This document shows positions 1 through 10,990 of a stretch of DNA of 10,990 bases, one piece after another. Under the pieces are notes generated by a model. It had not been told where the DNA came from. It saw only the letters and a program-made list of their open reading frames with translations, and did not search any database. The stretch comes from Patescibacteria group bacterium. GTDB lineage: Bacteria > Patescibacteriota > UBA1384 > XYA2-FULL-43-10 > CAINNR01. The stretch is taken from NCBI GenBank assembly GCA_028690755.1, contig JAQVAO010000009.1, forward strand, positions 1-10,990, given 5' to 3'. How positions within the stretch are numbered: position 1 is the stretch's first letter; the number at the start of each line of letters is the position of its first letter. The position numbers and the translations under genes were made by a program.

Positions 1-330
1 GAAATATCAAAGGTGGATGGAACACTAATAATCACTGCTGATCACGGTAACGCTGAACAGATGGTTCAGCTTAAAGAGATCGGCGATCGAGAAACTTTCC
101 ATACTCTAAATCCAGTGCCTTTTATCTTGGTTAGAAATGATTTAGCGCAGTCCAGACCAACTGTCGCTGGCCAAGAAATCCTAAGCAAGATGCTTTTCTC
201 TAGCCACTCTCTGGCAGACATCGCCCCCACCATTCTCGACTTGATTGGACTGGACACGCCACCAACTATGGAAGGTAAAAGTTTGCTAAAATATTTAATA
301 AGGAACGAAAATGGACAACATCTCAGTTGA
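1..330 (+). CDS. gpmI: 2,3-bisphosphoglycerate-independent phosphoglycerate mutase, C-terminal part (5' end outside window)
   Basis: This is the last 109 codons of a gene whose reading frame is open to the window edge. The enzyme interconverts 3- and 2-phosphoglycerate in lower glycolysis, in the cytoplasm, using two divalent metal ions in an alkaline-phosphatase-type fold. Visible marks of the family are TADHGNAE at fragment residues 12-19, where the Asp and His are metal ligands, and FHTLNPVPF starting at residue 33, whose His is another ligand. The closing stretch SLADIAPTILDLIGL followed by GKSLL is also typical. The stop TGA lies 20 bases inside the next gene (pduL), so the two are probably translationally coupled in one transcript. 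The neighbours continue the flow of carbon from glycolysis to acetate. The N-terminal half and the catalytic serine are not in the window. Family assignment is firm. Confidence 0.95.
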   Translation, partial: EISKVDGTLIITADHGNAEQMVQLKEIGDRETFHTLNPVPFILVRNDLAQSRPTVAGQEILSKMLFSSHSLADIAPTILDLIGLDTPPTMEGKSLLKYLIRNENGQHLS

Positions 331-886
331 AATTGAAGTTTCCGCCAGACACATTCATCTTTCAAGAGATGATTATAATTTTCTTTTTGGTGAAGATAGC
401 GATTTTAAAATAGTGAAACAACTGAGTCAAGAGGGTGAATTCGCAACTGATAAAAAAGTCAAAGTCATTGGTCCAGAAGGATCAATTGAAGCGAGATTTT
501 TAGGACCATTCCGTAAAAAAACGCAACTTGAGCTTTCAACTACTGATTGTTTTGAAATCGGAATATCCGCCCCCTACGCGATTGAAGTATCTGAAGAAGC
601 AGCAGAGATTAAACTAGCCGGCAAAGAGGCCGAGATAAGAAGAAACTGTGCTATTATTGCTAGACGACATCTCCACTGCAATCCGAAAGAAGCCAAAAAA
701 CATAATTTTACACCCGGCCAGCTTTTAGACTTAACTATTAAAACCGAGCGAGGCGGCGTTATATATTCTGATGTTGTAGTCAGAATCGCCGATCACTACC
801 GGATGAGAGTTCACCTAGACACAGATGAAGGAAATGCGGCAGGAATAACCGAACAGTCAAAAGGAATTTTAACACTGGAAAAATGA
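311..886 (+). CDS. pduL: PduL-type phosphate acyltransferase (phosphotransacylase)
   Basis: 191 residues. PduL enzymes exchange CoA for phosphate, acetyl- or propionyl-CoA + Pi to acyl phosphate + CoA, and are unrelated in sequence to Pta. Visible family motifs are VSARHIHLS (residues 10-18), GPFRKKTQLELSTTD (65-79), ARRHLH (117-122) and HLDTDEGNAAG (168-178). The His pairs at 14/16 and 120/122 match the known zinc-binding positions of the family's duplicated beta-barrel. The protein starts directly at the first barrel, with no N-terminal microcompartment-targeting extension, so it is probably a free cytoplasmic form. The ATG at 311 is preceded by AAGGA at 300-304 and lies inside the end of gpmI. 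The stop overlaps the ackA start as ATGA, so the gene is tightly coupled to acetate kinase. The likely role is acetyl-CoA to acetyl phosphate. The acyl preference cannot be read from sequence. Confidence 0.94.
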   Translation: MDNISVEIEVSARHIHLSRDDYNFLFGEDSDFKIVKQLSQEGEFATDKKVKVIGPEGSIEARFLGPFRKKTQLELSTTDCFEIGISAPYAIEVSEEAAEIKLAGKEAEIRRNCAIIARRHLHCNPKEAKKHNFTPGQLLDLTIKTERGGVIYSDVVVRIADHYRMRVHLDTDEGNAAGITEQSKGILTLEK

Positions 887-1875
887 TTTTAATAATAAAT
901 ACCGGTTCATCATCAATAAAATACAAACTTTTTGATAACGACTTTTCAGAAGTTATTTCTGGCAATTTTCGGGTCGAAGGGAAAAACTATTCTAAATCAA
1001 TCGCAGATATTATTGCGCAAACTCATGGGTATATAGATGATATAAAAATAATTGGCCATCGCGTGGTTCACGGTGGGAATGATGCTGATGAAATCATGCC
1101 GGTATCTCTAGATACAATGAAAATAATTAAAAAGTATTCTCCTTTAGCTCCGCTTCATAATCCACCAGCGGCCGAAGTAATCAAAATTGCAATTGAGAAA
1201 TTTCCTCAGACCAGGCAATTTGCCGCCTTTGATACTGCATACTTTAAAAATCTTCCGAAATTTGTAAAGACTTATCCCATAAACAGAGAAATCGCTGAAA
1301 AATATTCAATTTTCAAATATGGCTTTCATGGATTTTCCCACCAAGAAATGGCTCTTCAATTTGATCCTAATAAAAATAGAAAGATTGTTACTGTTCACCT
1401 TGGAGCTGGTTGCAGTGCTTCAGCAATCTCTTCTGGTAAGCCGATTGATACTTCTATGGGATTTACCCCAATTGAGGGGTTACCAATGCAAACTAGATCC
1501 GGAGATCTAGACCCAGAAATCGTTTTGTATTTGGTCGAAAAAATCGGCATTAAAAAAACTAAAGAATTAATTGAGTATCGATCAGGTCTTGCGGGAATTT
1601 CTGGCAAATCGGGTGACATGCTAGAGCTTCTTGAAAGCGATGATGAGTATTCGAAGCTGGCGATTGAAATTTTTTGCTATCGTATAAAAAAATACATTGG
1701 CGCTTATGCAGCAGCACTTGGCGGAATAGATGCAGTCGTGTTTTCAGGAGAGATTGGATATGGTTCAGAATTTATCAGAAAAAAAATTACTTTTGGCCTA
1801 AAATACCTGAATTTCAAAACTGAAAAATTAAAACCTAATGAAGAGTTAGCCATCGCGAAAAAGATAAACAAATAG
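883..1875 (+). CDS. ackA: Acetate kinase, unusually short form
   Basis: Converts acetyl phosphate + ADP to acetate + ATP. It belongs to the ASKHA superfamily and acts in the cytoplasm. Recognisable motifs are IINTGSSSIKYKLFD (residues 4-18, with N6), GHRVVHGG (58-65, with R60), APLHNPP (89-95, with H92), KYGFHGFSH (145-153, with H149), VHLGAGCSASAI (171-182), MQTRSGDLDPE (202-212, with R205) and NEELAIAK near the C-terminus (319-326). These match the substrate-binding and catalytic Asn, Arg and His positions of characterised acetate kinases. The length is 330 residues against about 400 for the family. The shortfall is mostly between residues 20 and 58 and in loops. The ADP-site motif, usually GGIGENS, reads SGEIGYGS here (288-295). 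The ATG overlaps the pduL stop by four bases (ATGA). Butyrate kinase is a less likely alternative, because pduL is adjacent. Confidence 0.93.
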   Translation: MILIINTGSSSIKYKLFDNDFSEVISGNFRVEGKNYSKSIADIIAQTHGYIDDIKIIGHRVVHGGNDADEIMPVSLDTMKIIKKYSPLAPLHNPPAAEVIKIAIEKFPQTRQFAAFDTAYFKNLPKFVKTYPINREIAEKYSIFKYGFHGFSHQEMALQFDPNKNRKIVTVHLGAGCSASAISSGKPIDTSMGFTPIEGLPMQTRSGDLDPEIVLYLVEKIGIKKTKELIEYRSGLAGISGKSGDMLELLESDDEYSKLAIEIFCYRIKKYIGAYAAALGGIDAVVFSGEIGYGSEFIRKKITFGLKYLNFKTEKLKPNEELAIAKKINK

Positions 1876-1895
1876 AATTTTAATTTTATTTCCGA

Positions 1896-1908
1896 TATAC
1901 TTGAGTGA
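1896..1908 (+). promoter_or_regulatory. Possible -10 element for a leaderless korA transcript
   Basis: The gap between ackA and korA contains TATACT at 1896-1901, one mismatch from the bacterial -10 consensus. A transcript starting about seven bases downstream would begin at or next to the korA ATG at 1908, as leaderless mRNAs do. No convincing -35 element is seen at the usual distance, and the region is AT-rich, so this could be chance. Confidence 0.25.
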
Positions 1909-2963
1909 TGGATGGAGGATATTTGGAAAAGTTAAGTTATATAACTGGTAATGAAGCTGCTGTTCTTGGCGCTATTGAAGGAGACGCCGAAAGTTTTTTT
2001 GGTTATCCAATCACTCCAGCAACAGAAATTTTAGAGGGCTGGATAAGGAAGGCGGAAGAAAATAAAAACCTAAACTATCTGCAAACCGAGGATGAAATTG
2101 CCGCCGGTTTTGCTGTAATTGGTGCCCTGCTTGCCGGTAAAAAAGCTTTTACTGCTACAGCTGGAATTGGACATGTTCTAATGCAAGACCCGATCTCAAT
2201 GGCAGAAAACGAGAGGTTACCTTTTGTCGGAATTATTGCACAGCGTGGGGGTCCATCTACTGGAACCGTTATTTACTCGCAACAAGAACTAAATTTAGCG
2301 TCTTACGGTGGTAACGGAGATGGTTTGAGAATTGTTTATTCTGCCAGCAGTGTTTCAGAAGTTTATTATTTAAGCCAAAAAGTATTTTCAATTGCCTGGA
2401 AATACCGATTTCCAACTTTCCTCTTAACTGACGGCTACCTGGCAAAACAACGAGTAAATACGAAACTTGAAAAATATTTAAAACCATTTCCATCTTCAAA
2501 GATATTAAGAGAAATGAAAGATAAACCAACTCATCTTAGAAACTGTTACGGCTCAGAGATTGAATTTGCAAATATTTTGAAAAGAAATATTGCCGATTAT
2601 AAGTCATTAATTAACAAAGTTGCAGAATCAGAAAGCTACAAAGCATCAGATTCGAAATACTTGATTATCGCTCACGGCAGCGTCGCTTCTGCTGCGAAAG
2701 ACTCAGTAGATATTTTACGCAACAGCAATGTTAAGGCTGGCTTATTGCGACCGATAACTATCCGGCCTCTTGATTCGAGAAACATACGAAGACTGGCGTT
2801 AAAAGCAGAAAAAGTATTTATAATTGAGTCGGCATTTGAGCAATTCGCCAGGATGATAATTTTCAAAGTTCCAGAAATTGCAAATAAAACAGTAAAAATA
2901 TACAAACCAGCAGAGGGATTCACGCCCGACGAAATTGCTAGTTTGGTTAATGAAAAAATATGA
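1908..2963 (+). CDS. korA: 2-oxoacid:ferredoxin oxidoreductase, alpha subunit
   Basis: This is the alpha subunit of a thiamine-pyrophosphate-dependent oxidoreductase that decarboxylates a 2-oxoacid to acyl-CoA and reduces ferredoxin. Numbering from the ATG at 1908 (351 residues), GYPITPATE (32-40) is the YPITP motif that contacts the 2-oxoacid. EDEIAAGFA follows (61-69). QRGGPSTGT (112-120) is typical of KorA/VorB-type subunits, and the C-terminal third is the transketolase-C-like domain. The gamma domain is not fused here and is encoded separately downstream (korC). The start is uncertain. GTG 1905 and ATG 1908 are in frame, and a TTG at 1923 follows a GGAGGA at 1914-1919 with a short spacer. 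The stop overlaps the korB start as ATGA. Substrate may be pyruvate, 2-oxoglutarate or a branched-chain oxoacid. The pduL-ackA neighbours favour pyruvate, but that is inference. Confidence 0.9.
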   Translation: MDGGYLEKLSYITGNEAAVLGAIEGDAESFFGYPITPATEILEGWIRKAEENKNLNYLQTEDEIAAGFAVIGALLAGKKAFTATAGIGHVLMQDPISMAENERLPFVGIIAQRGGPSTGTVIYSQQELNLASYGGNGDGLRIVYSASSVSEVYYLSQKVFSIAWKYRFPTFLLTDGYLAKQRVNTKLEKYLKPFPSSKILREMKDKPTHLRNCYGSEIEFANILKRNIADYKSLINKVAESESYKASDSKYLIIAHGSVASAAKDSVDILRNSNVKAGLLRPITIRPLDSRNIRRLALKAEKVFIIESAFEQFARMIIFKVPEIANKTVKIYKPAEGFTPDEIASLVNEKI

Positions 2964-3709
2964 CAAAGACCATCGATAAAAATTTTTCAATGCCGAAATG
3001 TTTTAATGAAAGATCAAAACCTAGTTTATATTGCCCTGGCTGCGGTCAAAGCATTTTTTTAAAGCACTTGGGCTTTATAATCGATGATCTGGAAATTCAA
3101 GGTAAAACTACTCTTGGAATTGATATTGGCTGTTCACTTCTTGCATGGAACTTTTTTAATTTTGATATCGTCCAAACACACCACGGCAGATCTGTACCGG
3201 TTGCTGTAGGTTATAAATTGTCCAATAAACGAAGAATTGTTATGTCAATTATGGGTGACGGCGGTGGCTATGCCATCGGCTTACAATCACTGTTACATGC
3301 GGCTTTTAGAAATAATCCAATATCAGTATTTGTCCTCAACAACACCGGGTATTCAATGACTGGAGGTCAAATGGCACCAACATCGATTCCAGGAGAAATT
3401 ACGACTACTTCCCCCAGCGGGAAAGACCCAAAAAACTCTGGTAAAGCTTTCCACGGTCCTGAGCTAATCAAACAGATATCGGATAACAGCGCATATATAG
3501 CCCGGGCATCAGTTTCAAATCCGATAATGCTGCAAAAAATGATCAAAAAAACACTTGAAAATCAGATCAAAAATAACTCTTTCTCCTTCTTGGAAGTTTT
3601 GACCCCTTGCCCAACCAATTGGAAGACAACGGCTTCCGAGAGTTTTAATTTTTTATCTAAAATGGAAAAGGAATTTCCAATCGGGGAAATGACTAAAAAT
3701 GAAAAATGA
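2960..3709 (+). CDS. korB: 2-oxoacid:ferredoxin oxidoreductase, beta subunit (TPP-binding)
   Basis: 249 residues forming the TPP- and [4Fe-4S]-binding catalytic partner of KorA. YCPGCGQS (24-31), DIGCS (55-59) and HHGRSVPVAVGYK (74-86) lie in the N-terminal half. MGDGGGYAIG (98-107) with NNTGYSMTGGQ (127-137) is the TPP/Mg motif region. Cys25, Cys28, Cys58 and Cys217 (in TPCPTNW) occupy the four positions that hold the iron-sulfur cluster in characterised archaeal oxoacid:ferredoxin oxidoreductases, so the cluster is probably intact. No Shine-Dalgarno is evident. The ATG overlaps the korA stop by four bases, so translation is probably coupled to korA. The end overlaps korC by 11 bases. The protein is smaller than some family members but contains every expected motif. 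Confidence 0.92.
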   Translation: MTKTIDKNFSMPKCFNERSKPSLYCPGCGQSIFLKHLGFIIDDLEIQGKTTLGIDIGCSLLAWNFFNFDIVQTHHGRSVPVAVGYKLSNKRRIVMSIMGDGGGYAIGLQSLLHAAFRNNPISVFVLNNTGYSMTGGQMAPTSIPGEITTTSPSGKDPKNSGKAFHGPELIKQISDNSAYIARASVSNPIMLQKMIKKTLENQIKNNSFSFLEVLTPCPTNWKTTASESFNFLSKMEKEFPIGEMTKNEK

Positions 3710-4526
3710 TTTAACAAAAATTGTCATATCGGGCGAAGGCGGCCAAGGAATCCAAACAATCGCTAAGGTGCTAGCCGAATCATTTAAAGATTCTGGTTTT
3801 TACGTTTCTTATATTCCTCAATTTGGTCCGGAGCAACGAGGAGCACCATCAATATCATTTATCCAATATTCCACGAAAGAAATTAAATACCCGCGTTTTT
3901 ATAAAGCTGATTATTTAATTGTGCTGCGAGAAAGAGCTATCCCAGCGACTACCACCTTTGTTAATAGCAAAACAAAAGTAATCTTTGATTCATCGACTAT
4001 CAGACCAAATGTGATAAAACAAAGTGAGAACAAAAAAGAAGCCGTTCCGGCAACTAAATTAGCATTTGATTTATTTGGCAAGAAAAATCTTAATCTGATA
4101 ATTAGCGGTTACCTAACAAAATTATTTTCACTTAATGAAAAAGCTGTTTGGAAAATCATAAAAAACCAACTCCAAAAAAAATTTTCAGAAAAAAAAGATC
4201 TTGAAGACAATGCTCGCAATGCATTTATTTATGGATATGAATTTACTTCAGAAAAGAAAAACTTCTCTCAGCCAACATTTAAAACTAACAAAACGATAAT
4301 CATCTCAAAAAACCGAGAGAGAGAGGCGTTTATATCGCCAGAGCTCTGTAAAGGTTGTGGAATTTGTATCGAGAAATGCCCCGTTGGCGCTTTGAAATTT
4401 GGCGATGAAATAGGGGTTTACGGAAACCCTATACCAGAAATTGATATAGATAAATGTATCAATTGTGGCAACTGTTTTCGATTTTGTCCTGATTGTGCAA
4501 TAAAAGTAAAAAAGAAAAGTAAATAA
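3699..4526 (+). CDS. korC: 2-oxoacid:ferredoxin oxidoreductase, gamma subunit fused to a 2x[4Fe-4S] ferredoxin domain
   Basis: 275 residues in two parts. Residues 1 to about 185 are the gamma (catalytic CoA-side) domain, with ISGEGGQGIQT (10-20) and QFGPEQRGAPS (41-51), both characteristic. Residues 210-275 form a bacterial dicluster ferredoxin domain. Cys217, 220, 223 and 227 make the first CxxCxxCxxxCP motif, and Cys253, 256, 259 and 263 make the second, with an extra Cys266. The domain therefore corresponds to the delta (KorD/PorD) subunit, which is usually a separate gene, and it would pass electrons from the KorB cluster to soluble ferredoxin. The ATG at 3699 lies in the end of korB, with a GGGGAA at 3683-3688 upstream. 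The basic tail (KVKKKSK) is short. The order alpha, beta, gamma-delta completes the complex. Gamma and ferredoxin assignments are firm, and the substrate is not known. Confidence 0.92.
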   Translation: MKNDLTKIVISGEGGQGIQTIAKVLAESFKDSGFYVSYIPQFGPEQRGAPSISFIQYSTKEIKYPRFYKADYLIVLRERAIPATTTFVNSKTKVIFDSSTIRPNVIKQSENKKEAVPATKLAFDLFGKKNLNLIISGYLTKLFSLNEKAVWKIIKNQLQKKFSEKKDLEDNARNAFIYGYEFTSEKKNFSQPTFKTNKTIIISKNREREAFISPELCKGCGICIEKCPVGALKFGDEIGVYGNPIPEIDIDKCINCGNCFRFCPDCAIKVKKKSK

Positions 4527-4533
4527 TACTCTT

Positions 4534-4611
4534 ATGGCTTGGTACTGGTGGATTATCGTATTTATTATGCTCGCGACCCTGATCTATTGGGCCTTTATCG
4601 AAACGAAGTGA
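4534..4611 (+). CDS. Possible 25-residue Trp-rich single-pass membrane peptide
   Basis: A short ATG-to-TGA frame begins 7 bases after the korC stop. It encodes 25 residues. MAWYWWIIVFIMLATLIYW is followed by a short end that closes with the charged residues Glu-Thr-Lys. The near-continuous hydrophobic stretch of about 20 residues would suit one transmembrane helix, and four of the 25 residues are Trp. It looks slightly richer in G+C than the flanking sequence. No Shine-Dalgarno precedes it, so expression would depend on read-through coupling from korC. I do not recognise it. It may be a real small membrane protein or a chance frame, and only conservation in relatives would decide. Confidence 0.35.
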   Translation: MAWYWWIIVFIMLATLIYWAFIETK

Positions 4612-4615
4612 CTCC

Positions 4616-4639
4616 CGCTTGAATTAAGCGTCTAGTTTT
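4616..4639 (+). terminator. Weak terminator-like hairpin before tRNA-Ala
   Basis: CGCTT (4616-4620) and AAGCG (4626-4630) form a perfect 5-bp stem with a GAATT loop, followed shortly by a four-T run (4636-4639). It lies between the kor operon and the tRNA gene, where a transcript end would be sensible. The stem is short and the T-run is poor and not immediate, so termination here is only a possibility. TTGAAT and GATAAA in the same stretch could instead be a weak promoter for the tRNA. Confidence 0.25.
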
Positions 4640-4658
4640 GATAAATTGAAGGTGGTTG

Positions 4659-4734
4659 GGGCCCGTAGCTTAGTTGGTAGAGCGCCTCCATGGCATGGAG
4701 GAGGTCAGGAGTTCAAGTCTCCTCGGGTCCACCA
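4659..4734 (+). tRNA. tRNA-Ala, anticodon GGC
   Basis: A 76-base cloverleaf is complete. The acceptor stem is GGGCCCG (4659-4665) with CGGGTCC (4724-4730). It contains a G3-U70 wobble pair, the classical alanine identity element. The D arm is GCTT/GAGC. The anticodon stem is CCTCC/GGAGG around loop ATGGCAT (4690-4696), which places anticodon GGC at 4692-4694, reading GCC and GCU codons. The T arm is AGGAG/CTCCT with loop TTCAAGT. A73 and an encoded CCA end the gene at 4734. It sits 24 bases before the leuS ATG and is probably co-transcribed with it, so 3'-end processing would release an mRNA with a very short leader. Confidence 0.97.
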
Positions 4735-4758
4735 ATCTTGAAACTTAATTTTGACTTA

Positions 4759-7524
4759 ATGAAAAAAAATATCAAGAATTTTTATTGTCTGGATATGTTC
4801 CCTTATCCTTCCGGAGCCGGTTTACATGTTGGGCACCCAAGGGGCTATACTGCCACAGACGTCTATGCCAGGTACAAGAGATTAAACGGCTATAATGTTC
4901 TACACCCAATGGGCTGGGATGCTTTTGGTCTGCCAGCTGAAAATTTTGCAATCAAAAATAAAGTTCATCCAGAAAAAGTTGTTAAAGAAAATGTCGCTAA
5001 ATTTAAACAGCAACTCAAGAATTTTGACCTGCAATATGACTGGGACAAGGAAATTAACACAACCGACCCCAATTATTATCGTTGGACTCAATTTATATTT
5101 TTAAAACTATTTGAGCGCGGTTTAGCATATGAGGACGAGTCGCCAATTAACTTTTGTCCTTCATGTAAAACCGGTCTTGCTAACGAAGAAGTTGTTGGTG
5201 GCAGCTGTGAGCGTTGTGGCTCAACTATCGAGAGAAAAAAAATCCGACAATGGATTCTAAAAATCACCGAATACGCCGACCGTTTACTCGAAGACCTAGA
5301 CGGACTTGATTGGCCAGAACCAATAAAAGAGATGCAGAGAAATTGGATCGGCCGCTCTGAAGGGTCAAGTATAATATTTGATATTAAGGATATTGATAAA
5401 TCCATCGAGGTTTACACCACTCGGGCTGATACTCTTTTCGGCTGTACATGGGTGGTTTTAGCTCCAGAACATCAATTGATCCAGAATCTAAAGGATAAAA
5501 TAGACAATTGGGATGAAGTTGAAAAATATATTATCAAATCTCAGAATAAATCTGATTTGGAAAGAACAGAACTTCAAAAAGAAAAAACCGGTGTTGAAAT
5601 CAAAGGAATCACTGCTATCAACCCAATAAATGGTGAGGAAATCCCGATTTGGATCTCTGATTATGTTCTTGCTCATTATGGCACTGGGGCAGTGATGGCT
5701 GTACCAGCTCATGATGATCGAGACTTTCAATTTGCTAAAAAATTTAACATTCCGATCAAATATGTTATTGAGCCGAAATTTGTTGGGATAGATGGTGATG
5801 GAGCGATAAAACCTGGTTTGGATTTCATGAGACGAAATGCGATTTGTGCTATTGTTAGAAATCCAAAAAACGATAATTATCTTTGTGTCAGTTGGAAGAA
5901 ATTCAAAATGCATGGATTAATTACCGGTGGCATTGAAAAAGATGAAGACCCTATCGAAACTGCAAAGCGCGAAATTAGAGAAGAAACAGGTTACAAAAAT
6001 TTAAAGTTTATCAAGTCTGAACCACTGGCAATAAACACCCAATTTTACCATCGAGTTAAGAGAGAGAATCGCTGGGCTCATTTCCAATTTCTGCATTTTG
6101 AACTCGAGAATGAGGAGAAAGATGAAATAGACCAAAAGGAAAGTCAGCTCCATGATATTCTATGGAAATCCAAAAACGAGTTGAAAGACTTTTTTACTGT
6201 TTTCGAGGGCCAATATATCGCTGATCTATTACAAAATGGCGAGAGTGCATTCACTGGACATGGAATACTGGTAAACTCAGCAGAATTCGATGGGCTAGAA
6301 TCAGAAGAAGCTAAGAAAAAAATAACTGAAAAATTGAAAGCCTGTGGTCACGGTGATTTTTCAGTTAATTATAAACTCCGCGACTGGGTATTTTCAAGAC
6401 AACGATATTGGGGCGAGCCGATTCCGATTGTCCATTGTAAAAAATGCGGAATAGTTCCGGTTCCAGAAAAAGATTTACCGGTAATTTTGCCTCATGTCGA
6501 AAAATACGAACCAACTGGTGACGGTACCTCTCCACTATCAAATGAAAAAGACCCAGCAATCTTAAAGTGGCTAAATACTAAATGCCCCAAATGCGGCGGT
6601 CAAGCGAAAAGAGAAACCAACACTATGCCCCAATGGGCTGGCAGCTGCTGGTACTACATCGCCTATTTAATGAAAGATGGCTCAAAATATGAGTGGAATA
6701 AAGAGAAAATTGATCAGTGGCTACCAGTTGATCTGTATGTAGGAGGCGCAGAACATGCAGTACTGCATCTTTTATATGCCAGATTTTGGCACAAGATCCT
6801 TTATGATGAAAAGCTCGTGGGGAGCAAAGAACCATTCCAAAAACTGATTAATGTTGGAACAATATTGGGCGTTGATGGCAGAAAGATGTCAAAATCTTTT
6901 GGTAATACTATCAGCCCTGATTCTCTACTGAAAAAATATGGCTCTGACGCACTAAAAATGTATGAACTATATATTGGTCCTTTTTCACAGATGGCAAAAT
7001 GGGACCAAAATGGCATTGTTGGGATGCATCGTTTTCTGCAGAAAGTCGAAAAAATTTCCTACAATGACAAGAACAGTGATAAAAATAATGTCATTATCAA
7101 CAAAGCGATAAAAAAAGTTTCTAATGATATTGAAAGTTTTAATTTCAATACTGCAATTAGTGCAATAATCGAGACTTTCAACTCTATCCATTCGAACTCA
7201 TGGAGCAAGCTGGATGTCCAATCGTTTTTGACTCTGCTTTACCCATTTGCGCCAAAAACTACGACGAAGATTTCTTCTAGCTTAAAAATTAATATTAAAC
7301 AGTGGCCTGAGATTAATAATAAATACTTACAAGCCGAAAATATCATTATCCCTGTGCAAATAAATGGTAAGATTCGCGAACAATTAGTTGTAAAGAATGA
7401 TATTACAGAAAAAGAAATTAGGGATCTGGTTGATTCAAATAAAAAAATTAAGCAATGGATTCCTAGCGGCAATATTAAGAAGTTTATATTCGTTAAAAAC
7501 AAAATAGTCAGTATCGTGGTTTAA
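4759..7524 (+). CDS. leuS: Leucyl-tRNA synthetase with Nudix domain inserted in the CP1 editing domain
   Basis: 921 residues from the ATG at 4759. Class I synthetase marks are HVGH (23-26) for HIGH and KMSKS (709-713). The two zinc-ribbon sites are C133/C136/C150/C153 and C560/C563/C609/C612. The editing domain has VYTTRADT (218-225) and AHDDRD (317-322). T225 and D322 match E. coli Thr252 and Asp345, so editing of mischarged tRNA looks retained. QRNWIGRSEG and SRQRYWGEPIPI are typical, and the C-terminal domain (IQVNGKIREQL onward) is complete. Residues of about 356-494 are a Nudix domain absent from E. coli and B. subtilis LeuRS. The N-terminus begins FYCLDMFPYPSG at residue 8, against about residue 34 in B. 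subtilis, so a leading segment is missing. Starts farther upstream (TTG 4738, ATG 4690) give tRNA-derived or short nonhomologous sequence. No Shine-Dalgarno is visible. Confidence 0.95.
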   Translation: MKKNIKNFYCLDMFPYPSGAGLHVGHPRGYTATDVYARYKRLNGYNVLHPMGWDAFGLPAENFAIKNKVHPEKVVKENVAKFKQQLKNFDLQYDWDKEINTTDPNYYRWTQFIFLKLFERGLAYEDESPINFCPSCKTGLANEEVVGGSCERCGSTIERKKIRQWILKITEYADRLLEDLDGLDWPEPIKEMQRNWIGRSEGSSIIFDIKDIDKSIEVYTTRADTLFGCTWVVLAPEHQLIQNLKDKIDNWDEVEKYIIKSQNKSDLERTELQKEKTGVEIKGITAINPINGEEIPIWISDYVLAHYGTGAVMAVPAHDDRDFQFAKKFNIPIKYVIEPKFVGIDGDGAIKPGLDFMRRNAICAIVRNPKNDNYLCVSWKKFKMHGLITGGIEKDEDPIETAKREIREETGYKNLKFIKSEPLAINTQFYHRVKRENRWAHFQFLHFELENEEKDEIDQKESQLHDILWKSKNELKDFFTVFEGQYIADLLQNGESAFTGHGILVNSAEFDGLESEEAKKKITEKLKACGHGDFSVNYKLRDWVFSRQRYWGEPIPIVHCKKCGIVPVPEKDLPVILPHVEKYEPTGDGTSPLSNEKDPAILKWLNTKCPKCGGQAKRETNTMPQWAGSCWYYIAYLMKDGSKYEWNKEKIDQWLPVDLYVGGAEHAVLHLLYARFWHKILYDEKLVGSKEPFQKLINVGTILGVDGRKMSKSFGNTISPDSLLKKYGSDALKMYELYIGPFSQMAKWDQNGIVGMHRFLQKVEKISYNDKNSDKNNVIINKAIKKVSNDIESFNFNTAISAIIETFNSIHSNSWSKLDVQSFLTLLYPFAPKTTTKISSSLKINIKQWPEINNKYLQAENIIIPVQINGKIREQLVVKNDITEKEIRDLVDSNKKIKQWIPSGNIKKFIFVKNKIVSIVV
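5824..6240 (+). other. Nudix hydrolase domain nested inside LeuRS
   Basis: LeuRS residues of about 356-494. It begins with the strand RRNAICAIVRNPKND and continues to MHGLITGG. The Nudix box runs from G390 to Y412 and fits GX5EX7REUXEEXGU at every fixed position: G390, E396, R404, E405, I406, E408, E409 and G411, with Y412 in the last bulky position. The metal-binding REIREE core is therefore intact, so hydrolysis of a nucleoside diphosphate derivative is plausible. The flanks IPIKYVIEP before and FTGHGILVNS after join up in ordinary LeuRS, so this is a clean insertion into a CP1 loop. The reading frame is uninterrupted. The substrate is unknown. Confidence 0.9.
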
Positions 7525-7527
7525 ATA

Positions 7528-7556
7528 TTGACTTTTTTATAATCTTGTGTCAAAAT
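7528..7556 (+). promoter_or_regulatory. Probable promoter of rpmF-nusB-rnc
   Basis: TTGACT (7528-7533) is one base from the -35 consensus. It stands 17 bases from CAAAAT (7551-7556), which is preceded by an extended -10 TG at 7548-7549. An exact TATAAT also occurs at 7538-7543 but lacks a matching -35. TTGAC (7528-7532) and GTCAA (7549-7553) form an inverted repeat across the promoter, perhaps by chance. Predicted initiation near 7563 gives a leader of about 37 bases before rpmF. Confidence 0.4.
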
Positions 7557-7599
7557 ATTTTAGTACGAATTAATACAGAAAATAACTATTGGAGCAATA

Positions 7600-7794
7600 A
7601 TGGCAGAACCAAAAAAGAAAACCTCAAAAGCAAATACCAGATCTCGTCGGCATCAGATAAAAATGACCAAACCGGCTATGATTTATTGTGAAAAATGTCA
7701 CCAGCCAAAGCTTCGACATCATGTTTGTGGTATTTGTGGCACCTATAAGAATAAGGTTGTGCTTGCCACGCAGGAAGTTGTGGAAGAAAAATAA
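7600..7794 (+). CDS. rpmF: 50S ribosomal protein L32
   Basis: 64 residues with the L32 pattern. The N-terminus is basic and reads MAEPKKKTSK, then TRSRRHQIK. A zinc ribbon follows, with Cys30/Cys33 (CEKC) and Cys43/Cys46 (CGIC) around PKLRHHVC. All four cysteines are kept, so this is the zinc-binding (C+) form. It assembles on the large ribosomal subunit. The ATG at 7600 has GGAG at 7591-7594 with a 5-base spacer. The acidic tail (residues after 57, ending VVEEK) is slightly longer than in many homologues. It starts a cluster with nusB and rnc, all for RNA and ribosome production, behind a likely promoter in the 75-base gap after leuS. Confidence 0.96.
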   Translation: MAEPKKKTSKANTRSRRHQIKMTKPAMIYCEKCHQPKLRHHVCGICGTYKNKVVLATQEVVEEK

Positions 7795-7820
7795 TTATTT
7801 GCTAAGTACTAGGAGTGGAA

Positions 7821-8249
7821 ATGAACCGTCATTTATCGAGAATGGTGGCAATGCAAGCCATATATGAATGGAACTTCCGTCAGGATGCAGATCTAGACGA
7901 ATTGGTCGAGAGAAGTATATCGGAGTTTTCTAACGATGTTGATTCAAAATATATTCGCGATTTAATTAGTGGTGTTACAAAAAATTCAAAAACTATTGAT
8001 AGAGAGATAGAGACGTGTGCTCCGGAATGGCCAATTGAACAAATATCACATGTAGACAAATCTATTTTGGAGATTGCAATTTATGAATTAGTTTATGCAA
8101 AGGATATACCACCAAAAGTAGCGATTAACGAAGCAGTGGAACTTGCTAAACAGTTTGGCAGCAGCAATTCATCAAAATTTATCAATGGTGTTCTCGGTTC
8201 AGTCTATGACCGTCATGTTAAAGATAAAAAGGAAAAAAATAATGAATGA
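7821..8249 (+). CDS. nusB: Transcription antitermination factor NusB
   Basis: 142 residues, all helical in this family. NusB binds NusE (S10) and boxA RNA to help antitermination of rRNA operons. The N-terminal helix [13 protein letters not shown] (7-19), the central [14 protein letters not shown] (77-90) and the C-terminal signature [17 protein letters not shown] (97-113), then [12 protein letters not shown] (117-128), are all present at the usual spacing. I chose ATG 7821 because AGGAG at 7811-7815 lies five bases upstream. The in-frame GTG at 7815 overlaps that ribosome-binding site and would add only two residues. The lysine-rich tail (KDKKEKNNE) overlaps the rnc start by 8 bases. The gap after rpmF is 26 bases, so the three genes are likely one transcript. 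Confidence 0.94.
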
Positions 8250-8934
8250 ACTTACTAAATTTGAAAAAGAGATCAAAATTAATTTTAATGATAAAAAACT
8301 ACTTAAACAAGTTTTTATTCATCGTTCATATATAAATGAACACCGATCTGCCGGGCTGGAACACAATGAGAGGTTGGAATTTCTTGGTGATGCGGTTCTT
8401 GAGCTTGTTATCACTGAATACATCTATTCAAAATATGATCGACCAGAGGGAGAGATGACAAGCTGGAGAAGCGCATTGGTTAAAGGAGAGTCCTTATCAA
8501 AAGAGGCAAAAAAAATCAAAATTGATGACTATTTATGTGTCAGTCGTGGCGAAGCAAAAAATACCGGTAAGGCGAGAGATTTAATATTGGCGAATGCCTT
8601 TGAGGCACTGATAGGAGCAATATATTTGGACCAGGGATATAAAATTGTTAGTGATTTTATAATAAAAAATATCGCCTACAAACTCGAGGAAATTATATCA
8701 GGGGTTGAATATATTGACGCTAAAAGTAAACTCCAAGAACTCTCACAAGAAAAATTTTCTTTAACACCAACATATGAAACCGTATCCGAAACAGGCCCCG
8801 ATCACAATAAAAAATTTGTTGTTCTGGTAAAAATTGGTAATAAAATTGCTGGCGAAGGTGAAGGTAATTCAAAACAAAAAGCTCAAATTATGGCAGCTGG
8901 TCAAGCCCTAGAAAACAAAAAAATATTCAATTAG
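8242..8934 (+). CDS. rnc: Ribonuclease III
   Basis: 230 residues. Cleaves double-stranded RNA, including rRNA precursors, as a dimer with Mg2+. The endonuclease domain carries the signature [13 protein letters not shown] (41-53). E43, E46 and D50 match E. coli E38, E41 and D45. The second acidic motif reads [11 protein letters not shown] (116-126). E121 matches the essential E117, but N118 stands where E. coli has D114. The C-terminal double-stranded-RNA-binding domain runs from about 158 ([12 protein letters not shown]) to [15 protein letters not shown] (210-224). The ATG at 8242 is supported by AAGGAA at 8229-8234. The frame can be extended to 8143, but those residues lie over nusB and have no RNase III similarity. 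The 3' end overlaps the convergent dacA by 8 bases. Confidence 0.95.
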
Positions 8935-9886
8935 ACCAATATACGTTTGAAAAACCCCAGTCAAGTAGATCTCTTGCTTCATCCGCTGAAGCAGTCGGGC
9001 TATGAACATAGGTACCTAACACAACTGCTATCAATTGATGGCCGTCTCTTTCTGCTGCGCCAATTAGACAATGGCTAGCAGCATAAGTAAAACCAGTTTT
9101 CACACCAATCGCACCAGGATACTGGTAAGTGGTGATTAACCTGTTCGAGTTTTCCAGCTGATGGAATATCGTATTTGAAGTATTGCTGGCTACATACTTG
9201 TCAGTTTTTACAATGTTTCGAAATATTGGATTGAGCAGTGCATATCTGGTAAGTAATGCCATTTCGCTGGCAGTGGAGTAACCCTCATCAGATAAACCGG
9301 CAGGATCAAAAAAACGGGTGTTTTTGAGGCCCAACTCTTTGGCTTTCTGATTCATTTTATCGACAAAATAATCGGGCTTCGAACCGGTTTCTTCGTCCAT
9401 GTGGGAAGCTATGGCATAGGCAGCGTCGTTTCCGGAACGTATCAACAAACAATGGAGAAGTTCGGAAACAGTAATTTCTTCACCTGTCCTTAAATATACT
9501 ACAGTCGGAGTCTGTATTGTTGCCTCATAAGGAACAATGACGACGTCATCAAGTTTATAATTTTCTAAGGCTACAACGGCAGTCATTATTTTAGTCAGTG
9601 ATGCTATTGGTACCGGTGTTTTGGAATCTTTCCCGATTATTTCTTCACCACTTATACCGTCTACCAAAGTGTAGTTTCGGGTGTTAACATAGGCTTTATT
9701 GTAATTATTTTTAATAAGTGGCCGCTGAACTTGAAAAATTGATATTGATTCATCAACAGCTCTCGCTGATTCATAATCCTCTCTAGAATAATTTGCAGCA
9801 ATTTTTGAATCAAAACTACTAGCCGATAAATTTATACCGACCAAATTTAGGATCAAAGACATTAGGATTAGGGGTTTGGCGATCAC
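8927..9886 (-). CDS. dacA: D-alanyl-D-alanine carboxypeptidase (peptidase S11, low-molecular-mass penicillin-binding protein)
   Basis: 319 residues with a hydrophobic N-terminal signal (about residues 5-22, PLILMSLILNLVGINLSAS), so it acts outside the cytoplasmic membrane. It trims the terminal D-Ala of peptidoglycan stem peptides. The three active-site motifs are SLTK (96-99, nucleophile S96), SGN (151-153) and KTG (263-265). ASLTKIMTAVVALE, RSGNDAAYA and FFDPAGLS are typical of S11 enzymes. The protein ends soon after the catalytic domain. The C-terminal beta domain and amphipathic membrane anchor of E. coli PBP5 are missing, so it may be released or held by an uncleaved signal. Residues of about 25-65 form an unrecognised linker. 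The start is GTG at 9886, overlapping the upstream stop as GTGA, with GAGG seven bases before it. Confidence 0.94.
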   Translation of the reverse strand: MIAKPLILMSLILNLVGINLSASSFDSKIAANYSREDYESARAVDESISIFQVQRPLIKNNYNKAYVNTRNYTLVDGISGEEIIGKDSKTPVPIASLTKIMTAVVALENYKLDDVVIVPYEATIQTPTVVYLRTGEEITVSELLHCLLIRSGNDAAYAIASHMDEETGSKPDYFVDKMNQKAKELGLKNTRFFDPAGLSDEGYSTASEMALLTRYALLNPIFRNIVKTDKYVASNTSNTIFHQLENSNRLITTYQYPGAIGVKTGFTYAASHCLIGAAERDGHQLIAVVLGTYVHSPTASADEARDLLDWGFSNVYWSN

Positions 9887-10578
9887 AAAATATCCTCTTT
9901 ACTTATTTCTTTAATTTTCCCTAGAGGCAAGCTGATCTCTTCCAAAGACAACCTTCCAACTGATATTCGCTTGAGAGAAATTATTTCCAGTCCGATTCGA
10001 CCAGCAATAATTCTGATATGTCGTGTCTTGCCCTCGTGCAAGGAAATCTTGATTTTATTTCTGGCAATAAACTCTGCATTATCAACTTTATACTGAGTGC
10101 CGTGATGTTTTACTCCGAGTAAAAACTGCTTTATAATCCCCTTTTTCCCAACATTATCTGGCTTGCTTTGGTACTCTAAATGATAAATCTTTGTTTTTTG
10201 ATATTTTGGATGTGTTAGCTGCTGGGAAAAATCACCGTCGTTAGTAAATAATATCAATCCTTCAGTATCCTTATCAAGTCTACCCACCGGAAACAAGCGA
10301 ATATTGTCTGGTAAATACTTTTTTACTCCTTTGCCTTGAGTGTCAGAAAGAGAAGTAATTACCCCACGTGGCTTATTTAAAACAAAATAGCGCTTATTTC
10401 CATGAGGAGTAATCTTCTTGCCACCAACTGTTACAACATCTTCAGGGCCAACCATCGATCCTAATTTTGCCTGATTTTTATTTACAAATACCAAACCATT
10501 ATTTATCAGCTCATCGGCTCGACGCCTGGAACAAATCCCAGAGCTTGAAATAAATTTATTCAATCTAATCTTAGTCAT
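9883..10578 (-). CDS. RsuA/RluB/RluF-family rRNA pseudouridine synthase
   Basis: 231 residues. An N-terminal S4 RNA-binding domain ([20 protein letters not shown], 4-23, to about 50) precedes the pseudouridine synthase domain. RGVITSLSD (71-79) is the family's motif [21 protein letters not shown] (97-116) is motif II and includes the catalytic Asp102. KIYHLEY follows, then [15 protein letters not shown] (182-196), which corresponds to the EGxxRQVRRM motif with Thr and His replacements. It isomerises uridine to pseudouridine in rRNA, either 16S (RsuA) or 23S (RluB/E/F). Which site cannot be decided from sequence alone, so I give no symbol. The ATG at 10578 overlaps the aspS end by 8 bases, has a weak GGAA upstream, and the stop overlaps dacA by four bases, giving an aspS-synthase-dacA transcript. 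Confidence 0.92.
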
Positions 10579-10990
10579 TAGTTTCCGTATCAGACAACTT
10601 TAGTGCTTTGCCTTCGGCTTCTTTTGCTAATTTAATATGAACATCGGAAAGTTGACGTTCACTTACCGGCGACGGCGCGCCCATCATTGCATCTCTAGCA
10701 TCACCTGTTTTTGGAAATGCCATCACCTCCCTAATAACATTTTCATGAGAAAGTATTGCCGCAATTCGATCTATGCCAGGAGCAATCCCACCATGAGGAG
10801 GAGCCCCATACTCGAAAGCCTCAAGCATATGCCCAAAACGTCTTAATTTTTCATCTTCGGAAACTCCGAGTAGATCGAAAATCTTATCCTGAATATCGCG
10901 TTTATGAATCCTGATCGAGCCACCTTCGATTTCGAAACCATTCAGTACTAGATCATAGGCATAAGCTATGACTTCTTCCGGTTTACTATC
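10571..10990 (-). CDS. aspS: Aspartyl-tRNA synthetase, C-terminal part (5' end outside window)
   Basis: The frame is open to the window edge and encodes the last 139 residues. This class II synthetase charges tRNA-Asp, and in organisms lacking AsnRS sometimes tRNA-Asn as well. [19 protein letters not shown] (fragment residues 10-28) is the conserved active-site strand region. [20 protein letters not shown] (51-70) runs into motif 3, PGIDR (71-75), whose Arg75 contacts [23 protein letters not shown] (85-104) and [10 protein letters not shown] (105-114) are typical of bacterial AspRS. The tail after 120 is short. The Met within HMLEAFEYG is internal and not a start. The stop TAA lies in the start of the pseudouridine synthase gene. 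Motifs 1 and 2 and the anticodon-binding domain are upstream of the window. Confidence 0.95.

Follow-up and report, generated by a model that had tools for sequence, protein, structure and literature searches.

Why should the gene for an essential synthetase also encode a second enzyme within the same reading frame? This question is raised by a 10,990-nucleotide stretch of DNA from a Patescibacteria group bacterium (contig JAQVAO010000009.1 of assembly GCA_028690755.1, positions 1 to 10,990 of the forward strand; hereafter the window), in which leuS (4759..7524, plus strand, stop codon included) encodes a leucyl-tRNA synthetase (LeuRS) of 921 aa, here called P0002. An initial annotation of this DNA had placed a complete Nudix hydrolase domain inside connective peptide 1 (CP1), the editing domain of the synthetase. 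We observed that residues ~339-494 of P0002 are indeed a complete Nudix domain nested in a CP1 loop of LeuRS.

A Nudix domain within the CP1 loop

P0002 is a bacterial LeuRS, with a TIGR00396 equivalog score of 975 bits against a cut-off of 548. Its open reading frame (ORF), 4690-7524, is uninterrupted over its whole length. Since the first ATG of this ORF falls within a tRNA-Ala gene (4659-4734), the likely start of leuS is 4759. When P0002 is aligned with Thermus thermophilus LeuRS (1h3n), the alignment stops at residue 338 (T. thermophilus 363) and restarts at 495 (374). The intervening segment, whose limits were also drawn from Nudix-less relatives (5773..6240, plus strand), stands in place of a 10-residue CP1 loop. 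The segment first proposed, 5824-6240, corresponds exactly to residues 356-494 and stands as the Nudix segment; the insert as a whole is slightly longer, beginning at about 5773.

The Nudix domain proper (residues 357-478; 5827..6192) matches PF00293 with 52.6 bits (E 6e-14; gathering cut-off 21.1), and AlphaFold2 predicts a Nudix-like order of strands and helices over residues 356-493, with ten-residue means of the pLDDT confidence score of 91-96 across residues 351-490. The domain search and the predicted structure, both named beforehand as possible refutations, thus returned a Nudix match and a Nudix-like fold. The Nudix box, GGIEKDEDPIETAKREIREETGY (residues 390-412; 5926..5994), is kept in relatives and matches GX5EX7REUXEEXGU with its metal-binding glutamates. 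It had been called perfect, and the pattern does fit, with Tyr at the final hydrophobic position as the sole deviation. The X-loop residue Tyr430 (6046..6048) lies 18 residues after the box.

Residues 341-500, used as the query of a homologue search, matched 128 proteins, 120 of which were listed. All 120 combine PF00293 with synthetase domains, and the full Nudix box is present in 117; the remaining three (P0044, P0069 and P0114) retain REXXEE. Because the box is retained in these 117 homologues and the predicted fold is Nudix-like, the box is not a chance match. Two close homologues, P0004 and P0006 (76-77% identical over the whole protein), carry the Nudix domain and share the architecture, which excludes a one-off assembly join.

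The editing domain that hosts the insert is recognizable on both sides of it. On the 5' side, PF13603 matches at 5338..5778 (profile 1-143 of 185), the best stretch stopping at residue 340, ahead of the Nudix match. On the 3' side, alignment with T. thermophilus LeuRS places the rest of CP1 from ESAFTGHGILVNS onward (residues 495-532; 6241..6354, the 3' limit being approximate). The first part contains the Thr-rich peptide TTRADTLFGCT (residues 220-230; 5416..5448), which acts in editing in LeuRSs, and the HDDRD editing-site segment (residues 318-322; 5710..5724). Across 85 aligned Nudix-bearing LeuRSs, T220, T221, R222, D224, T225, G228 and T230 are conserved in at least 90% of rows, and H318, D319, R321 and D322 are invariant. 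The CP1 editing-site residues (Thr-rich peptide and HDxRD) are intact in P0002.

Conservation, distribution and exchange

Conservation of the Nudix domain was assessed in two sets. In an alignment of 118 proteins, which excludes P0003 (the cluster of the window protein itself) and two short proteins, P0107 and P0109, W379 and K434 occur in every protein, N437 in 117 and R438 in 115. The second set pools 227 embedded domains from 222 proteins (listed homologues and proteins read from fetched loci, omitting P0003, L001 and L093, which are copies of the window protein, and L017, from a contig with an inverted copy); it includes close relatives, so its counts are not independent events. Here W379 is found in 208 domains and K434 in 220, the X-loop residue 18 after the box is Y or F in 217, and the three metal-binding glutamates are retained in 223. 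REXXEE is retained in 218, the nine exceptions being four extra Nudix domains in multi-Nudix proteins and five domains at the usual site. The ratio of nonsynonymous to synonymous substitution rates (dN/dS), computable in 12 of 13 chosen pairs for each region, is 0.04-0.38 for the Nudix domain and 0.05-0.24 for the LeuRS core. Given the glutamates kept in 223 of the 227 domains and these low Nudix ratios, catalysis by the embedded domain is probable. The same two features in relatives rule out a dead relic, so that the earlier view of an intact metal-binding core holds, with activity as a prediction from sequence. Four proteins with more than one Nudix domain (L111, P0005, P0019 and L019) each have one copy with a changed box (Q at 396, A or T at 404), probably a weakened copy beside an intact one.

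Of the 379 Patescibacteria genomes sampled, at least 51 have a LeuRS with a nested Nudix domain. This number combines 46 LeuRS frames read directly with five cases (G041, G073, G164, G236 and G344) taken from coinciding coordinates, and weaker cases may be missed. The statement in the initial annotation that other LeuRSs of the candidate phyla radiation (CPR) hold such an insertion is thereby borne out, whereas its suggestion of a lineage-wide architecture is not: within the window's own family, only the window genome of the four sampled has the domain. Two of the others (G175 and G332) have an ordinary short CP1 loop at the Nudix site, and the third (G153; L129:192-2873, minus strand) has a different insert of ~110 residues there without a Pfam match. 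By the look of the alignment this insert was a candidate degenerate Nudix domain; the Pfam scan gave no Nudix, and it was set aside as another insert. The domain also occurs outside CPR, in metagenome-assembled genomes (MAGs) labelled Bacilli, Clostridia, Erysipelotrichaceae or Tenericutes and in one Pacearchaeota MAG. It is present in 9 of 247 genomes in the class of G379 (G379 counted) and in 32 of 117 in the order of G387 (counted as matches in frames of 782-966 residues).

One ancient insertion with nothing but losses afterwards is unsupported, because the trees of the LeuRS cores and of the Nudix domains conflict. At least 18 changes are needed to explain the presence and absence of the domain on the LeuRS-core tree, which has 173 cores and 768 columns with the inserts excluded. 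One clade of 28 Nudix domains (SH-aLRT 99), most of them with a box that starts GT and drawn from MAGs with Bacilli or similar labels, has its LeuRS cores split over three places in the core tree, and forcing 12 of these cores together is rejected by the approximately unbiased (AU) test (p-AU 5e-6; 40 rows). The LeuRS-tree group of L041, L058, L104, L110 and L119 is likewise rejected on the Nudix data (p-AU 7e-7; 45 rows), and the Nudix domains of L042 and L044, labelled Clostridia and Bacilli, fall outside the 28-domain clade. Forcing P0002, P0004, P0006 and P0020 together on the Nudix data is not rejected (p 0.37), and the test therefore says nothing against the kinship of these four. Standalone Nudix proteins (mostly 31-50% identical) are intermixed with embedded domains in the Nudix tree. 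Our reading is that the module has been transferred repeatedly, both from one LeuRS backbone to another and between the embedded and the free state, as far as the trees can tell: the large ones come from quick searches, the Nudix alignment has 145-146 columns with many weak forks, and both trees are unrooted and thus silent on the direction of transfer.

In four freestanding proteins the Nudix domain is joined to a reduced CP1 shell alone, with no LeuRS catalytic domain; these proteins have lost the Thr-rich peptide and have an intact Nudix box. A search of one class (196 genomes) and one order (117 genomes) revealed no free forms beyond those of the two query genomes. Genetic recoding was considered as a cause of these short ORFs and rejected, as reading with table 4 reveals no TGA in three of the four; in the other, L025, there are two TGAs, at codons 7 and 19 of the extended frame, both of them ahead of the ATG. 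One of the free CP1-Nudix genes lies 30 nt behind a gene for Ham1 (XTP/dITP diphosphatase), which hints at nucleotide house-cleaning. At the L025 locus, a radical SAM gene and a CYTH-domain gene are upstream, with no Ham1 among the scanned neighbours.

Candidate functions of the nested domain

It seems to us rather likely, on comparative grounds, that the domain is a catalytically competent Nudix pyrophosphohydrolase forming its own module on a CP1 surface loop, an autonomous and laterally exchanged passenger of LeuRS. The module would fold separately out of this loop, with LeuRS as the constitutive carrier of an autonomous enzyme that would cleave a substrate of the nucleoside-polyphosphate type, in NTP house-cleaning or on dinucleoside polyphosphates (NpnN) or RNA 5' ends. 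It would move between LeuRS genes, perhaps via recombination across the conserved CP1 flanks, and it appears to be dispensable for aminoacylation and editing, with the editing-site residues intact.

Several observations weigh against this reading. Since the free form retains the CP1 shell, CP1 may be more than a mount, and a Ham1 neighbour is seen at only one of the four free-form loci (ten adjacent ORFs were scanned altogether, not every ORF). REXXEE is altered at the usual (first) site in L012, L113, L116, L127 and L135, and some lineages may therefore have lost catalysis. Nudix dN/dS exceeds that of the core in 8 of the 11 pairs having both values; several dS values are above 1, and all pairs exclude the window gene. 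The groups submitted to the AU test were named after the trees had been seen, and the 40 and 45 rows are subsets of our own choosing.

The possible functions differ mainly in how closely the domain is tied to its carrier. In the self-clearance model, it hydrolyses diadenosine tetraphosphate (Ap4A) or related NpnN produced by LeuRS itself. Consistent with this, the top solved sequence by profile is the Ap4A hydrolase 1f3y (E 8e-7), and the Foldseek/VIA neighbours of a free relative include RppH-Ap4A, CT771-Ap4A, Aquifex Ap4A hydrolase and Ap6A hydrolase. In 187 of the 227 domains, moreover, a Tyr follows the box at +15 to +20 (Tyr430 in P0002), and a Tyr motif after the Nudix box is linked to diadenosine polyphosphates in a passage of PMC5389931. 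However, Dcp2 decapping enzymes are practically tied with 1f3y (E 1.2e-6), the MutT-type structures 2azw and MutT1 rank equally high among the structure neighbours, and the X-loop Tyr is a weak predictor. Section 5 of PMC10148737 places LeuRS among the low Ap4A producers, which weakens self-clearance further. The same type of Nudix domain also occurs without a LeuRS catalytic domain, in free CP1 shells and standalone proteins, and in valyl-tRNA synthetase (ValRS), a pattern more in keeping with an autonomous enzyme than with a scavenger tied to a single synthetase. Self-clearance is thus unlikely in our estimation.

A closer coupling, in which the domain helps to edit, or binds or processes the tRNA end or the aminoacyl-adenylate, and makes one composite enzyme with CP1, would suit an insertion within the editing domain itself, the shell kept by the freestanding form and the RNA-bound RppH among the Foldseek neighbours. 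Yet LeuRSs of the same family do without the domain, the editing-site residues are intact beside it, the Nudix module has moved across LeuRS backbones, and the free form lacks the Thr-rich peptide; we regard such a role as quite improbable. It is more doubtful still that the insertion is an inert or selfish passenger, tolerated without cellular function: the patchy distribution with frequent gain and loss, the many unrelated domains that LeuRS accepts and the erosion of some boxes would fit, but 223 of the 227 domains keep the metal glutamates and the tested pairs have dN/dS well below 1, which speaks against it.

The autonomous Nudix passenger resembles known systems in its parts. The nearest profiles and structures are RppH, Ap4A hydrolases and MutT-type enzymes (PF00293), which have the Nudix box, predicted fold and metal glutamates in common with it; the window domain differs in being nested within another enzyme's domain and in its family-specific W379 and K434. 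Assignment to RppH was rejected (NCBIfam PRK00714 equivalogs: best 27.4 bits against a cut-off of 118), and no listed NCBIfam Nudix model reaches its curated cut-off on P0002. Compared with bacterial LeuRS in general (TIGR00396, PF13603), it is here the editing domain itself that hosts an insertion. A part of a 2026 domain-insertion survey counts PF13603 as inserted in 213 events and as host in zero (PMC13114784), and the LeuRS-Nudix family is a counter-example to such an insertion-only PF13603. Isoleucyl-tRNA synthetase (IleRS) with a GNAT domain (NF040702, compared by family name only) is likewise a class I synthetase to which an enzyme domain has been added, although both synthetase and added domain are others. 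YbaK, described in the abstract of PMC3973320 as a freestanding editing-domain homologue that clears Cys-tRNAPro, resembles free CP1-Nudix as a synthetase editing module that is its own protein, whereas the latter has lost the Thr-rich peptide and carries an intact Nudix box. By titles and abstracts, among the matches listed, we found no description of a Nudix domain nested in LeuRS in the open-access literature, most subscription journals lying outside it. The ingredients are of known kinds; what is new is their arrangement, nested and exchangeable and accompanied by a free form.

Surroundings of leuS and other nested enzymes

The apparent start of leuS lies 24 nt behind tRNA-Ala(GGC) (window 4659-4800), and the N-terminus of P0002 is ~27 residues shorter than that of T. 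thermophilus LeuRS. HVGH (residues 23-26; 4825..4836), read from the protein sequence, is the class I HIGH motif, and residues 709-713 (6883..6897), read from the sequence and the T. thermophilus alignment, are the KMSKS motif. Directly 5' of tRNA-Ala and leuS, window 311-4526 encodes a phosphotransacylase of the PduL type (PF06130), acetate kinase and three 2-oxoacid:ferredoxin oxidoreductase subunits, an acetate-forming fermentation set.

Nudix is not the only enzyme nested in these synthetases. In twelve of the 120 listed homologues the annotation names additional domains: alpha/beta hydrolase, Ham1 or DUF559. Of eight proteins given a complete domain scan, seven have the extra domain (two in P0115) ahead of roughly profile position 20-22 of PF13603. 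P0019, which like P0005 has two Nudix domains, carries the second one before that point and an alpha/beta hydrolase beyond the usual Nudix. Three Nudix domains, one alpha/beta hydrolase and one HAD domain are nested in a 1735-aa LeuRS from a Taylorbacteria MAG (L019:1687-6891), and HAD, Ham1, Nudix and nucleotidyltransferase domains in the LeuRS of L127, which runs off the end of the fetched stretch. The LeuRS of L038 has a full Ham1 ahead of the anticodon domain, and that of L199:450-3557 (minus strand) has a SAM methyltransferase at the Nudix site, where its sister L010 has Nudix. In the ValRS L140:271-2919, a Nudix domain follows the editing part and scores with the LeuRS-Nudix profile (E 1.2e-27). 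Histidine phosphatases are nested in the IleRS-type proteins L128:2641-7272, L224:1480-5007 and L229:568-4464, the first of which additionally has Nudix and serine hydrolase domains.

These cases tentatively suggest a broader possibility, which we hold with low confidence. Editing class I synthetases, LeuRS above all with cases in ValRS and IleRS, could serve as a docking bay in CPR and some Bacilli and Clostridia, taking up small enzymes of nucleotide metabolism (such as Nudix, Ham1, HAD and histidine phosphatase) in or near CP1, swapping them between synthetases and releasing them with a CP1 shell; CP1 and Nudix together may even be a composite enzyme acting on an adenylylated or tRNA-linked by-product.

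For annotation, the finding has a direct bearing, since the names of the listed homologues, where given by the source (leucyl-tRNA synthetase or class I tRNA ligase), leave the second enzyme unmentioned. LeuRSs without an insert, with Nudix and with other enzymes form, together with free CP1-Nudix, a natural series for testing directly what such inserts do to editing, nucleotide pools and Ap4A. A universally essential enzyme carries an exchangeable second enzyme in bacteria with minimal genomes, and if the docking-bay or composite-enzyme reading is true, nucleotide hygiene would be physically tied to translation.
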